From the NCBI GenBank assembly GCA_017860635.1, contig JAGDMK010000004.1, positions 1 to 35,244 on the forward strand: 35,244 nt of DNA, given 5' to 3'. The DNA comes from Bacteroidota bacterium (GTDB lineage Bacteria; Bacteroidota; Ignavibacteria; UBA10030; UBA6906). This document shows positions 17,977 to 23,507 of this stretch, one piece after another. Position numbers and translations under genes: made by a program. The notes under the pieces were generated by a model. That model worked only from the letters and a program-made list of their open reading frames with translations, did not search any database and had not been told where the DNA came from. Within the stretch, counting starts at the first letter, position 1, and the number at the start of each line of letters is the position of its first letter.

Positions 17977-19074
17977 TCACTGCCCCGGATCATTCATCAC
18001 ATGCGACTGATGCGCGATGGATTCCTGATGAATGATCTCGAACAGCTTCGTTACAAATTCCTCTGTCAGGTTTTTCATCTGTCCTTCCTGAAGCCGCGTC
18101 CGCACGATCTCATCCCACCGCTGCGATTGCAGGATCGTGATGTTGTTCTGTTTCTTGTAGACGCCGATCTGCTCCGCGACTGACATCCGTTCCGCCATAA
18201 TATCCAGCACTTCGTGGTCGATCTTGTCAATCCGCTCGCGCAGTTCCTCCAGCTTCGTTCTGGTCAGTACATCGGTGATCACCTCCTTGCGGAAGACGAG
18301 GTGATTCAGAAGCGCGCCGGTCTCTTCAGGCGTCAGCTGTTGCTGGGCATCGCTGAGGGCTTCGTCCGGACGGATATGCGCCTCGATCATAAGGCCGTCG
18401 AAGTTGAGATCCATGGCTGTCTGGGAGACGGCCTGCAGCGTGTCCCTCCGGCCGCAGATGTGGCTGGGGTCGCAGATGATCGGCAGTCCGGGGACCCTGC
18501 GCTTCAGTTCGATCGGGATTTCCCAGTTGGGCTTGTTCCGGTAGTGTGACCGCTCGAACGTCGAGAACCCGCGGTGGATTGCCCCCAGTTTTGTGATACC
18601 GGCCTTGTTGATCCGTTCCAGCGCGCCGATCCAGAGCTCGATGTCTGGGTTGATGGGGTTCTTCACGAGGACAGGGGTATCCGTTCCGCGGAGTGTGTCG
18701 GCGATCTCCTGGACGGCGAACGGATTCGCGCTTGACCGCGCGCCGACCCAGAGGATATCAATCCCGGCCTTCAGAGCGTCCTCCACGTGACGGCTGTTGG
18801 CGACCTCGACCGCGGTGGGGAGGCCGGTGGCCTTGCCGGCGCTGCGGATCCAGGCCAGCGCCGCACTCCCGATTCCCTCAAAGGCGGAAGGCCTTGTGCG
18901 CGGCTTCCACACGCCGGCCCGCAACGCATGCACACGCCCGAGCTTCTTCAGCGCTACGGCGGTCTGCATTACCTGGCTCTCGCTCTCGGCACTGCATGGT
19001 CCGGAGATGATCAGTGGCCGCGGTGCATCAAGACCGATAACACGCTGCCGTTCAAACGATATATGTGCTTCCAT
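17977..19074 (-). CDS. Bifunctional 3-deoxy-7-phosphoheptulonate synthase / chorismate mutase
   Basis: PLIISGPCSAESESQVMQTA...RAGVWKPRTRPSAFEGIG...PIICDPSHICGRRD; C-terminal AroQ-like LEELRERIDKIDHEVLDIMAERMSVAEQIGVYKKQ. Confidence 0.93.
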   Translation of the reverse strand: MEAHISFERQRVIGLDAPRPLIISGPCSAESESQVMQTAVALKKLGRVHALRAGVWKPRTRPSAFEGIGSAALAWIRSAGKATGLPTAVEVANSRHVEDALKAGIDILWVGARSSANPFAVQEIADTLRGTDTPVLVKNPINPDIELWIGALERINKAGITKLGAIHRGFSTFERSHYRNKPNWEIPIELKRRVPGLPIICDPSHICGRRDTLQAVSQTAMDLNFDGLMIEAHIRPDEALSDAQQQLTPEETGALLNHLVFRKEVITDVLTRTKLEELRERIDKIDHEVLDIMAERMSVAEQIGVYKKQNNITILQSQRWDEIVRTRLQEGQMKNLTEEFVTKLFEIIHQESIAHQSHVMNDPGQ

Positions 19075-19969
19075 TCTTCACCCCATTTGTGACATCATTC
19101 TTGGCTTCGTTCTTCACCCCGTTCATCCCGGCCAGCACTCTCCGGATGGCATTTGCCTCCTCCATTGTCCTGGCCAGCTTCGCGGTTTGCCCCGCCTCGA
19201 GCAACTCCTTGAACGCCGTAATGTTCTTGATGTACGCGTCAAGTGCCTCACACACGAACTGAGCGTTCTGTTCGAAGATGGGGGTCCACATGGCGGGCGA
19301 ACTCTTCGCGAGCCGCACCGTTGACTCGAACCCGGATCCGGCAAGGTCAAAGATCGTGGAGGTACTTTTCTCGATCTCAAGCACTGTAGTGGCGAGAACA
19401 AATGATGATATGTGTGAAATGTGCGACACATATGCGACGTGGCGGTCATGCTCACGGGCGTCCATGAAAAGCACCCTCATGCCAAGAACGCCGTAAAGTT
19501 CTGTGACGCGGGCCAGCGCGTCGGGATCAGATGACTCACGGTCGCAGATGATGCCGAGCTTGTCGCGGAAGAGTCCGTGCAGTGCTGCGCCCGGACCGCT
19601 ATTCTCCGTGCCTGCAATGGGGTGCGAGGGGACGAATCGGCCCCGACGGGGATGATCCTGCACCGCCTCGCAAATGCCCCGCTTCGTGGATCCCGCGTCT
19701 GTCACGACGGCGCCCGGAGCGAGTGCATCCAGGATGCCGGGCAGGAGCGTGGTGGCTGCGTTGACCGGCACCGCAAGGATGACGAGATCTGCTGATTCGA
19801 GCCCCTGGCGGAGATCCACGACTTCATCAACAAGCCCGAGCGAAAGTGCCCTGGATGCGTTGTCACTGCTTTGATCAACGCCCAGAATGCGGCCGGAGAA
19901 ACCCGAGGCCTTCAGGTCCAGGGCCATGGATCCTCCGATGAGGCCGACACCAATAACCGTCGTCGTCAT
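19052..19969 (-). CDS. tyrA: Prephenate dehydrogenase
   Basis: MTTTVIGVGLIGGSMALDLKASGFSGRILGVDQS...DLVILAVPVNA...TDAGSTKRGICEAV...FVPSHPIAGTENSGPGAA. Start set to ATG 19969, 4-bp overlap with the upstream gene. Confidence 0.92.
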   Translation of the reverse strand: MTTTVIGVGLIGGSMALDLKASGFSGRILGVDQSSDNASRALSLGLVDEVVDLRQGLESADLVILAVPVNAATTLLPGILDALAPGAVVTDAGSTKRGICEAVQDHPRRGRFVPSHPIAGTENSGPGAALHGLFRDKLGIICDRESSDPDALARVTELYGVLGMRVLFMDAREHDRHVAYVSHISHISSFVLATTVLEIEKSTSTIFDLAGSGFESTVRLAKSSPAMWTPIFEQNAQFVCEALDAYIKNITAFKELLEAGQTAKLARTMEEANAIRRVLAGMNGVKNEAKNDVTNGVKNGSTYIV

Positions 19970-21159
19970 ACAGGCCTCGCACTGGAATGGTGCAACGGTG
20001 AATGCCTCTGCACACGCTCGAGGGCGGCTCTGAGCGAGCCTGTCGGACTGCAAAGCGACAGTCGGAGGTACCGGCTGCCCCTGGGTCCGAACACGCTGCC
20101 CGGCGTCAGAAACAGGTGCATGGAGTGGAGGATCATGTCGCTCATCCCTTCCGCACTGGAGGCCTGCTCGGGAATCCGGCCCCACACAAACATGCCTGCC
20201 TGTCCGGCCTCCACGGTGCATCCGAGCTGCGTGAGCACGGACGTGCCGATCTCGCGCCTCCGGTCGTACTCTGCCTGCAACTGGCGGTACCATTCCGGTC
20301 CGGCCCGAAGAGCACGGATAGCGGCTTCCTGAACGGGAAGAAACATCCCCGATTCCACATTGCTGGCAACACGAAGGACTGTGTCAATATACTCTTTGTG
20401 ACCGGCCATCCATCCGACCCGCCATCCTGCCATGTTGTGAGACTTGCTCATGGATCCGAGTTCCACGGCGACGTCTTTTGCTCCTCCGCACGACAGGATG
20501 CTCATGGGTTCAGCCGAGGAGGTCAGCATGGAATAGGGGTTGTCGTGGCAAATCAGAATCCCGCGTTGCCGGGCGAAGTCGACCAGGCGCTGCAGCGTGG
20601 GACGCCGGGCTGGTGCTCCGGTGGGCATGTGCGGATAGTTCGCCCAAAGCATCTTAACGCCGGTCAGATCCATGCGCTCGAGAGCCTCCCAGTCCGGGGC
20701 CCATTCCTGATCAGGTCGAAGTGGGTACACCGCAACTTCCCCGCCTGCAAGGCGCGTGACCGACGAGTACGTGGGATATGACAGCTCGCTTACGAGTGCT
20801 CGGTCTCCCGGATTGAGAAACGCCAGGGTAAGATAGATCATTCCGTGTTTTGACCCGGGCAGGGGAAGGAGTTCAGTGGCCGGGTCAACCGACAGCCGGT
20901 GCGTGGTGAGAAGATACCATGCGATAGCCTCCCGCAGAGCCGGGAGCCCCTTGTGGGCCTGATATCCGTGGTGATCGGACTTCTGCGCAGATGAAGCAAG
21001 CTCATGGATTGTCGAGGACGACGGAGGGAGGTCGGGGCTGCCGACGCCAAGATTGATGACCGGCAAACCTTTGCCGACCATCTCATGGATCTCCCGAAGC
21101 TTCGCCGAGAAATAGTATTCCTCCACACCCAGTAACCGTTCTGAAGCTGGAATGATCAT
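19966..21159 (-). CDS. PLP-dependent class I/II aminotransferase, probably the aromatic/prephenate aminotransferase of this operon
   Basis: INLGVGSPDLPPSSSTIHELA...YQAHKGLPALREAIAWYL...MLWANYPHMPTGAPA...VELGSMSKSHNMAGWRVGWMAG. Confidence 0.88.
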   Translation of the reverse strand: MIIPASERLLGVEEYYFSAKLREIHEMVGKGLPVINLGVGSPDLPPSSSTIHELASSAQKSDHHGYQAHKGLPALREAIAWYLLTTHRLSVDPATELLPLPGSKHGMIYLTLAFLNPGDRALVSELSYPTYSSVTRLAGGEVAVYPLRPDQEWAPDWEALERMDLTGVKMLWANYPHMPTGAPARRPTLQRLVDFARQRGILICHDNPYSMLTSSAEPMSILSCGGAKDVAVELGSMSKSHNMAGWRVGWMAGHKEYIDTVLRVASNVESGMFLPVQEAAIRALRAGPEWYRQLQAEYDRRREIGTSVLTQLGCTVEAGQAGMFVWGRIPEQASSAEGMSDMILHSMHLFLTPGSVFGPRGSRYLRLSLCSPTGSLRAALERVQRHSPLHHSSARPV

Positions 21160-22001
21160 GCGCTTTTCTTTCCTCTTGGATACGTGCCCAGGACATGCAG
21201 TTCGTGGACGTAGGGGGTAATGACCGCCAGGGCATCTGTCAGATGCTGGATATCATCAAACTCCAGGTCGACATGCATGAAGTACTCCCACTCGCGTCCG
21301 AGAATGGGAAGCGATTGGATCTTTGTGAGGTTGCAGCCATGCTCAGCGAGGACGGTCAGGACACGGGCAAGACTTCCGCGCGTGTGTGAGACGTGAAACG
21401 CCAGTGAAGCCTTGTCCGGAGGAGGCATCTGTCCGTTGAGATGGTCTTTGTCCGTCAGGACCAGAAACCTGGTGAAGTTCCGCTTGTCCGTTTCAATCCC
21501 CGGGGCGAGAATGTTCAGGCCGTACAGCGATGCCGCCCGTCGCGCCGCAATTGCACCGATGCCCTTCTTGTGATGATCGCGTATCCAGGCCGCACTCGCT
21601 GCCGTGTCCGTGGTCTCAATCAGGCGGATCTGCGGATGCTTCTCAAAATATGCATGGCACTGCTGGATGGCCATGGGATGCGAATGCACTTCCCGGATAT
21701 CCTCAAGGCTTTGACCGGGGAGCGCCAGGAGGTTCTGGCGGATGGCCAGATAGATCTCGCCGATTACGGCAAGTGTGGAGGTGCGCAGGAGGGCGTAGTT
21801 CGGAAGTATCGTCCCGGCCACGGTGTTTTCGATCGCCATCACCGCGTACCGGACTTTGCGCTTCTTCATGACCTGAAACAGGTCACGAAATGTCTCGCAG
21901 GGAACAATGGTGAAGGGCGAGGGAAAGTACTGGGCACAGGCCTCGTCGTGAAATGATCCGGCTATGCCCTGAATGGCGATGATAGGTTGGTCTGGGTCCA
22001 T
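21156..22001 (-). CDS. pheA: Prephenate dehydratase with ACT domain
   Basis: MDPDQPIIAIQGIAGSFHDEACAQYF...MAIENTVAGTILPNYALL; ACT region HTRGSLARVLTVLAEHGCNLTKIQSLPILGREWEYFMHVDLE. Start set to ATG 22001, not the ORF-track start at 22109. Confidence 0.93.
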   Translation of the reverse strand: MDPDQPIIAIQGIAGSFHDEACAQYFPSPFTIVPCETFRDLFQVMKKRKVRYAVMAIENTVAGTILPNYALLRTSTLAVIGEIYLAIRQNLLALPGQSLEDIREVHSHPMAIQQCHAYFEKHPQIRLIETTDTAASAAWIRDHHKKGIGAIAARRAASLYGLNILAPGIETDKRNFTRFLVLTDKDHLNGQMPPPDKASLAFHVSHTRGSLARVLTVLAEHGCNLTKIQSLPILGREWEYFMHVDLEFDDIQHLTDALAVITPYVHELHVLGTYPRGKKSA

Positions 22002-22004
22002 ATA

Positions 22005-22033
22005 ACGAAAAATCCCGACTTGATGTCGGGATT
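22005..22033 (-). terminator. Intrinsic terminator (attenuator) immediately before pheA
   Basis: Minus strand AATCCCGAC-ATCAA-GTCGGGATTTTTCG: 9-bp stem, 5-nt loop, U-tract. Ends about 4 nt before the pheA ATG. Confidence 0.85.
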
Positions 22034-22074
22034 GGCTGTTGGTGTATGCAGTTAAGGGTGCATCAGTCCCGACA
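22024..22074 (-). promoter_or_regulatory. Predicted antiterminator pairing (22067-22074 with 22024-22031)
   Basis: Minus-strand TGTCGGGA (last codons of the leader ORF) is exactly complementary to TCCCGACA, the 5' arm of the terminator, making the two structures mutually exclusive. Confidence 0.7.
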
Positions 22075-22134
22075 CGATCCGCTCGCGCGATAGAAGTAAT
22101 AAAACGCAAAGCCGTGGAGGACGCTGGAATTCAT
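22063..22134 (-). CDS. Phe/Tyr leader peptide (attenuation control): MNSSVLHGFAFYYFYRASGSCRD
   Basis: Minus strand ATGAATTCCAGCGTCCTCCACGGCTTTGCGTTTTATTACTTCTATCGCGCGAGCGGATCGTGTCGGGACTGA. Six aromatic codons in a run of seven, upstream of pheA and followed by the terminator. Confidence 0.8.
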   Translation of the reverse strand: MNSSVLHGFAFYYFYRASGSCRD

Positions 22135-22201
22135 GCTCTTTAATAAAGCACTATCCATGTCAATAGCAAGCGGAAAAGATATAGTCCGTGCCTGATGCGC
22201 C

Positions 22202-23104
22202 TCAGAGGATCTTGTGCTGCTTCAAGAACTCTTTGATCCCGGCGTAAATCTGGAGCATTTCCGCGCGGGAGAACCCGCCGTGTTTGCCGTTTGGAATCGT
22301 CACCAGACGGTTGGGAACGCCCGCTTTATCCAGGGCCGCATGCAAGCGGGTCGCGTGTGCATAGGGCACAAGCTGATCGCTCGTTCCATGAATCGTAAAT
22401 ATGGGGGGAAGGTCTTTCCGGATGTACGAAAGCGGAGAAACCCGTTTTGCGATCTCCTCGCGGTCCTTGCCGTTGCCAATCCAGGAAACGGCGTAGTTCT
22501 GACGATTGGGTCCGGCAAGGAGATCCTGGACATCGGTTATCCCGAACCAGTTGACGATGGCTGCGACTTTGAGGACCGGGTTGGTCTGATCCCATTCCCG
22601 CGAGACGTCGAAACCGGCTGCGGAGTCCAGCATCCCCGTCATGAGCGCAAGATGGCCCCCTGCGGATCCGCCCGTTACCACAATGCGGGTCGTGTCAAGG
22701 TTATATGTCCTGGCATTCTTCATCACCCACCGCAACGCCAGACGGCAATCCTCCACTGCTGCCGGTGCCAGGGCCACCCGGGCAAGGCGATACTCCACGT
22801 TCACTATTGAGAAGCCCATTTCGAGGTAGGGAAGAAGATGGATGTTGTTGCTCTCCTTCGTTCCGCCTACCCAGCCCCCTCCGTGAATGTTGATCACGGT
22901 CGGTACAGGGCCGGTTGTGCTGCGCCGCGCATAGACGTCAAGTTTCGACTCGTAGCTATTCGCTACGGAATACGTAACGTTTGGAACGATCCAGTAGCTT
23001 TGCTGAATGTCGATCGCCCATCCGAACGGTTCGGCGGGTTGAGGCTGGCTGAGAGCCAGGGACACAGTCAAGAGCGTGAGCAGGAGCATGGCAATCGTAC
23101 GCAT
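22202..23104 (-). CDS. Secreted alpha/beta-hydrolase (BD-FAE/carbohydrate-esterase-like)
   Basis: Signal peptide MRTIAMLLLTLLTVSLALSQ; NIHGGGWVGGTKESN oxyanion motif; VVTGGSAGGHLALM nucleophile; HGTSDQLVPY; NGKHGGFS. Confidence 0.88.
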   Translation of the reverse strand: MRTIAMLLLTLLTVSLALSQPQPAEPFGWAIDIQQSYWIVPNVTYSVANSYESKLDVYARRSTTGPVPTVINIHGGGWVGGTKESNNIHLLPYLEMGFSIVNVEYRLARVALAPAAVEDCRLALRWVMKNARTYNLDTTRIVVTGGSAGGHLALMTGMLDSAAGFDVSREWDQTNPVLKVAAIVNWFGITDVQDLLAGPNRQNYAVSWIGNGKDREEIAKRVSPLSYIRKDLPPIFTIHGTSDQLVPYAHATRLHAALDKAGVPNRLVTIPNGKHGGFSRAEMLQIYAGIKEFLKQHKIL

Positions 23105-23210
23105 GAAAGGCCTCGGTCAAAAGTGTCGTGTGTGGTTGAGGAAGGTACCAATGACAATATAGGCGAGCGGGGGGAGAGAATCAACGGAACGAACGTGCGC
23201 CGCACCGCGG

Positions 23211-23445
23211 GCAGCCGCGCCGCCGACAGCTGCACCGTGGGTAGCCCCGGGGGAAAAGCCGCGCTGCAGACAGCCGCACCGTGGGTAGCCCTACCGGGCA
23301 GCCGCGCCGCGGACAGCTGGACCGTGGGCAGCCCCACCGGGGAACAGCCGCGCCACGGACAGCTGGACCGTGGACAGCCCTCCCGGGAACAGCTGCGCTG
23401 CGGACGGCTGCACGGGGGCAAGCCCACCGGGGACAGCTGCACTGG
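23211..23445. repeat. Imperfect about 45-bp tandem repeat, about 5.3 copies
   Basis: Units start at about 23211, 23258, 23298, 23345, 23390 and 23434 (partial), e.g. CAGCCGCGCCRCGGACAGCTGGACCGTGGRCAGCCCYMCCGGGGAA. Confidence 0.85.
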
Positions 23446-23507
23446 AGATTGGAAACAGTGAGCGGGAATGCCTACATTACGACCGACTATCGAAAGGATG
23501 TGCGGCC

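Follow-up and report, generated by a model that had tools for sequence, protein, structure and literature searches.

In the window, i.e. the whole 35,244-nucleotide stretch of DNA analysed here, the pheA gene is preceded on the minus strand by an element that very probably acts as a transcription attenuator of the classical ribosome-mediated kind, with charged tRNA-Phe and tRNA-Tyr as the signals sensed. Its parts, conservation, co-variation and geometry can be read from the DNA itself, and it is from these that we infer transcription, termination and the response to amino acids. The element brings together a short leader ORF in which codons for the end-product amino acids form a run, an intrinsic terminator located between this leader and the first structural gene, a mutually exclusive antiterminator predicted to use the 5' arm of the terminator at the correct spacing to the control codons, and downstream genes that, according to their domain content, make the amino acids sensed.

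The leader peptide ORF comprises 23 codons on the minus strand (22063..22134), from an ATG at 22134 to a TGA ending at 22063, and encodes MNSSVLHGFAFYYFYRASGSCRD, where the control codons F9, F11, Y12, Y13, F14 and Y15 form the run F-A-F-Y-Y-F-Y. The window contains 445 ORFs that start with ATG and encode 10-40 aa. Among them, at least six aromatics within eight residues are found in this leader alone, counted with its two in-frame starts, and none of the 32,059 ORFs obtained in 60 Markov simulations of the window shows such a run. Together with the strength of the pairing between the leader tail and the terminator arm, described below, this means that chance is no explanation for the leader. 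The second in-frame ATG, upstream at 22158, lies inside a promoter-like stretch and is not matched by any in-frame start in the closest relative, which makes 22134 the better leader start. The first-pass annotation had already proposed this 23-aa leader with its aromatic run, and had pointed out that the ORF track misses it and stretches pheA through it. Both points hold, the mechanical ORF list extending pheA to a TTG at 22109, across the leader in a different frame.

The terminator is a hairpin of the rho-independent type, AATCCCGAC-ATCAA-GTCGGGATT (segments 3 and 4; 22011..22033, minus strand), with a 9-bp stem and an energy of -13.3 kcal/mol, which was also picked up by an independent pattern scan. 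Its stem is followed by TTTCG, then TTAT, and then the pheA ATG at 22001, 9 nt from stem to ATG, and its U tract is short (UUUUU, then CG). The antiterminator 5' segment (segment 2, TGTCGGGA; 22067..22074, minus strand) lies within leader codons 21-23 and is exactly complementary to TCCCGACA of the terminator 5' arm, while the duplex between the leader tail UGUCGGGA and this arm reaches -15.3 kcal/mol, with z = -5.3 against dinucleotide shuffles. Thus, the terminator just ahead of pheA and the complementarity of its 5' arm to the leader end, both claimed in the first-pass annotation, are recovered here, the former also by the pattern scan. In the MFE fold, a putative protector segment 1 (GTCCTCCACG; 22113..22122, minus strand) could pair with segment 2 if the leader were untranslated, but its sequence is not conserved across the five genomes of the clade of the window, which makes it a weak candidate. 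Upstream of the leader there is a promoter-like block, CTTGC...TTTATTAAAG (22138..22176, approximate bounds, minus strand), with CTTGC invariant in the same five genomes. Its -10-like element ends just 5-10 nt ahead of the leader ATG, and the mRNA of the leader ORF may be fully or almost leaderless.

Four genes with overlapping ends follow on the minus strand: pheA (21156..22001), encoding a prephenate dehydratase with an ACT domain (PF00800, 5.9e-59; PF01842); a class I/II aminotransferase gene overlapping the pheA stop (19966..21159; from the domain search and the ORF list); tyrA, encoding a prephenate dehydrogenase with a putative start at MTTTVIG (19052..19969; PF02153, PF20463); and a gene for a DAHP synthase fused to a chorismate mutase (17977..19074; PF00793, PF01817). 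With this content, the operon makes both Phe and Tyr, as had been claimed from the start. Upstream of the operon, a BD-FAE-type hydrolase gene (22202-23104, minus strand) is encoded on the same strand, a position kept in all five clade genomes, directly or within a few kb. The region that separates the hydrolase gene from the following gene (23068-23461) is repeat-rich, with long overlapping ORFs on both strands.

According to the mechanism proposed here, RNA polymerase would start near the leader, and a ribosome would translate the 23-codon peptide. If charged tRNA-Phe or tRNA-Tyr is scarce, the ribosome would stall at a codon between 9 and 15. Segment 2 would then be exposed and could pair with the terminator 5' arm once this is made, and the antiterminator so formed would allow transcription to run on into the pheA-aminotransferase-tyrA-DAHP synthase/chorismate mutase genes. 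If both charged tRNAs are plentiful, the ribosome would instead reach the stop codon and cover segment 2, so that the terminator would form 9 nt before the pheA start.

This logic, in which stalling leads to the antiterminator and arrival at the stop codon to termination, had been put forward before, and is supported by the pairings and by ribosome-mask folding, where the RNA downstream of the ribosome was folded for successive A-site codons. The folding covered the five genomes of the clade, i.e. that of the window, two further ones from its genus and two from a second genus in the family. In all five, the antiterminator is predicted to be available up to an A-site at codon 17 and to be lost from codon 18. 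This boundary falls shortly behind the main run, whose last control codon is 14 or 15. With the ribosome at the stop codon, the terminator alone remains. Full-length MFE and equilibrium calculations predict that the terminator outcompetes the antiterminator even when the ribosome is stalled, so the switch must be kinetic, as in classical attenuators, with the antiterminator forming first and persisting.

The pheA products of the four close relatives are 74-85% identical to that of the window (74-100% counting the window's own). The leader has exactly 23 codons in all five genomes, ending in SCR(D/E) in the relatives; TCGTG.CGGGA.TGA, the region of the antiterminator segment, is invariant in the five; and the terminator is nearly identical in the four relatives, its U tract, TCGGGATTTTTC, being invariant throughout the clade. 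With stems so nearly invariant, co-variation within this clade is uninformative.

The best 80 loci for the window pheA, from a set of 84,980 species, were scanned for aromatic leaders. An ATG-start aromatic leader is present in 55 loci, including the window and almost all from Bacteroidota, and one further leader, in L068, has a TTG start. The first-pass annotation would have been refuted by homologous upstream regions lacking the aromatic ORF and the pairings, and this is not what they show: all four close relatives and 50 more loci carry both leader and terminator, and in most of them the tail pairs with the arm better than shuffled controls do. The search that found the terminators demands a hairpin and a U tract, so that independent evidence comes not from their mere presence but from the match between tail and arm. 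Tested against dinucleotide shuffles, this duplex is stronger at p<0.05 in 42 of the 55 loci and at p<0.01 in 23, with 13 missing p<0.05; the test starts at the first control codon, a definition picked after the result of an earlier version was known. That earlier version, with segment 2 taken from after the last aromatic codon, gave 23/55 at p<0.05 and was abandoned, having truncated the real segment 2 in several loci.

Firmer than this post hoc definition is a tail swap test, which uses no single-locus cut-offs. Between the 55 loci, the mean energy was -14.5 for native and -11.8 for swapped tails, with none of 2000 permutations as low, and for 19 diverse loci the values were -14.4 and -9.7, with none of 5000 as low. 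Tails and arms thus differ by lineage yet stay complementary, as in the pairs GGCCGGAG/CUCCGGCC (L063), AUGAGAAC/GUUCUCAU (L066) and GAGGGAU/GUCCCUC (L075), which gives the co-variation of the stems that had been suggested as a check in related genomes. In L032 and L033, a C-A mismatch interrupts the antiterminator.

The leader is present in 50 of the 54 loci with operon genes beside pheA versus only one of the 22 with a lone pheA (Fisher p 9e-14, in a test where related genomes are not independent and three part-operon loci are counted as operon). Three Flavobacteriales loci (L044, L057 and L092) have pheA-aminotransferase-tyrA without a leader, together with a TAnnTTTG promoter-like element right at the pheA start, and they look as if the attenuator was lost. 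L036, a Lentisphaerae locus counted as having no leader, contains a weaker candidate.

Both Phe and Tyr are present in 54 of the 55 leaders, which supports the mixed Phe+Tyr sensing proposed in the first-pass annotation. Within the attenuator reading, a sub-question, whose probability does not add to those of the other alternatives, is whether the element responds to Phe only, the Tyr codons having no sensing role. The classical E. coli pheA leader senses Phe, and Phe codons outnumber Tyr codons over all leaders (265 vs 184); even so, we consider a Phe-only attenuator unlikely, given the near-universal presence of Tyr, the position of Tyr15 as the last control codon in the window, and the fact that the sole leader without Tyr (MKTTKTNASFFFFWFSS, in L046, upstream of 3992) precedes a pheA without a tyrA-type operon, as far as the DNA examined shows. 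In L046, pheA is followed by a different aminotransferase-like gene.

The short distance between the end of the stem (22011) and the pheA ATG (22001), and the location of the hairpin within ~15 nt of the start in the clade of the window and several other loci, would fit translational attenuation, where the main role of the hairpin would be to keep ribosomes off pheA until the antiterminator forms, with little effect on transcription. This seems highly improbable, because a U tract follows the hairpin at every locus (required by the search, but also invariant in the clade of the window), and because the distance between the hairpin and the matched pheA start is 40-90 nt in many Bacteroidota loci, which is too much for initiation to be blocked. 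That the hairpin is a plain terminator of the upstream hydrolase gene, which does lie on the same strand, accompanied by a chance aromatic ORF, has a negligible probability, since across distant lineages the leader keeps its frame and length, and tail and arm co-vary so as to stay paired, the aromatic run was never seen in simulations, and the leader tracks the operon.

As for the origin of the presumed attenuator, this operon type is found within the order only in the genus of the window and one other. In other members of the family and order, pheA is distant (31-41% identity). Among the loci examined, those of the family have it without the operon, and those of the order yielded no aromatic leader. 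The pheA tree places the clade of the window on the Bacteroidota side, but joining it with its own order is not rejected by the AU test (p = 0.336), so that the operon and its attenuator may plausibly have been acquired horizontally, although this is not proven. The broadest scenario, a phylum-wide, formally undescribed family of Phe+Tyr attenuators that moved with the operon from Bacteroidota into an Ignavibacteria-type lineage, with a leader mRNA that is leaderless or nearly so, is tentative, and we regard it as possible rather than probable.

Other operons of the same genome were sampled through HisG, TrpE, LeuA-type and PheS searches, among which a leader candidate was found at hisG only. 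There (L142, G000:C136, reverse complement nt 228-302), a leader-like ORF, MNFKATILFHHHHHCGSRTIAPGG, with five consecutive His codons lies ~80 nt ahead of a hisZ-like gene and hisG. It represents a probable His attenuator, and suggests that the lineage uses attenuation more than once. The TrpE N-domain (PF04715) had no match in the whole G000 genome, an 88% complete assembly, which may reflect an assembly gap or the absence of the usual anthranilate synthase. The motif TGYCGGGANTGA was tried as the signature of a leader family and rejected: it occurs 15 times in the genome versus once for a reversed-pattern control, and an aromatic leader with a terminator is found at the pheA site only.

In Rfam, an E-value search with the window returned only a sub-threshold Trp_leader (18.5 bits vs 41) and no family above the gathering threshold, and tRNA was the only match for seven loci. 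The enterobacterial pheA/pheL and trp attenuators are the classical examples of ribosome-mediated transcription attenuation. They share with the element described here a short leader with the regulated codons and mutually exclusive antiterminator and terminator, as well as pheA as the first gene. Unlike them, this element has mixed Phe/Tyr codons, a joint Phe/Tyr operon downstream and a segment 2 inside the last codons of the leader, in addition to belonging to another phylum, having another sequence and lacking an Rfam match. The thr (Thr+Ile) and ilvGMEDA (Ile+Leu+Val) attenuators of E. coli are comparable in that a single leader responds to two or three amino acids from the same pathway, although the amino acids and operons differ. 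A wide comparative paper on attenuation, cited by others as Lopatovskaya 2010, may already list this attenuator.

A transcriptome study of Flavobacterium psychrophilum (PMC9723704) describes, ahead of pheA, a structured 5' element that is conserved in Flavobacteriaceae and has no match in Rfam; it also reports strong clues that leader peptides attenuate amino acid operons. That element resembles the one described here in its gene, the phylum of most relatives, the lack of an Rfam hit and the attenuation proposed, whereas the main text of that study gives no leader sequence, pairing logic or range beyond Flavobacteriaceae. The Flavobacteriaceae loci L040 and L041 carry the aromatic leader. The mechanism is thus known, and its association with pheA in the phylum is already noted in that text; what is added here is the Phe+Tyr leader, the pairing logic with its co-variation, the wide range, and the occurrence beyond the typical Bacteroidota families.

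The co-varying loci could serve as the seed of an Rfam family. They could also help annotation, given that ORF callers run pheA across the leader. In a lineage known from metagenome assemblies, the element provides a concrete, testable switch of aromatic amino acid synthesis, with its coordinates and its pairing logic, and the same attenuation logic recurs over many Bacteroidota families, beyond proteobacteria.
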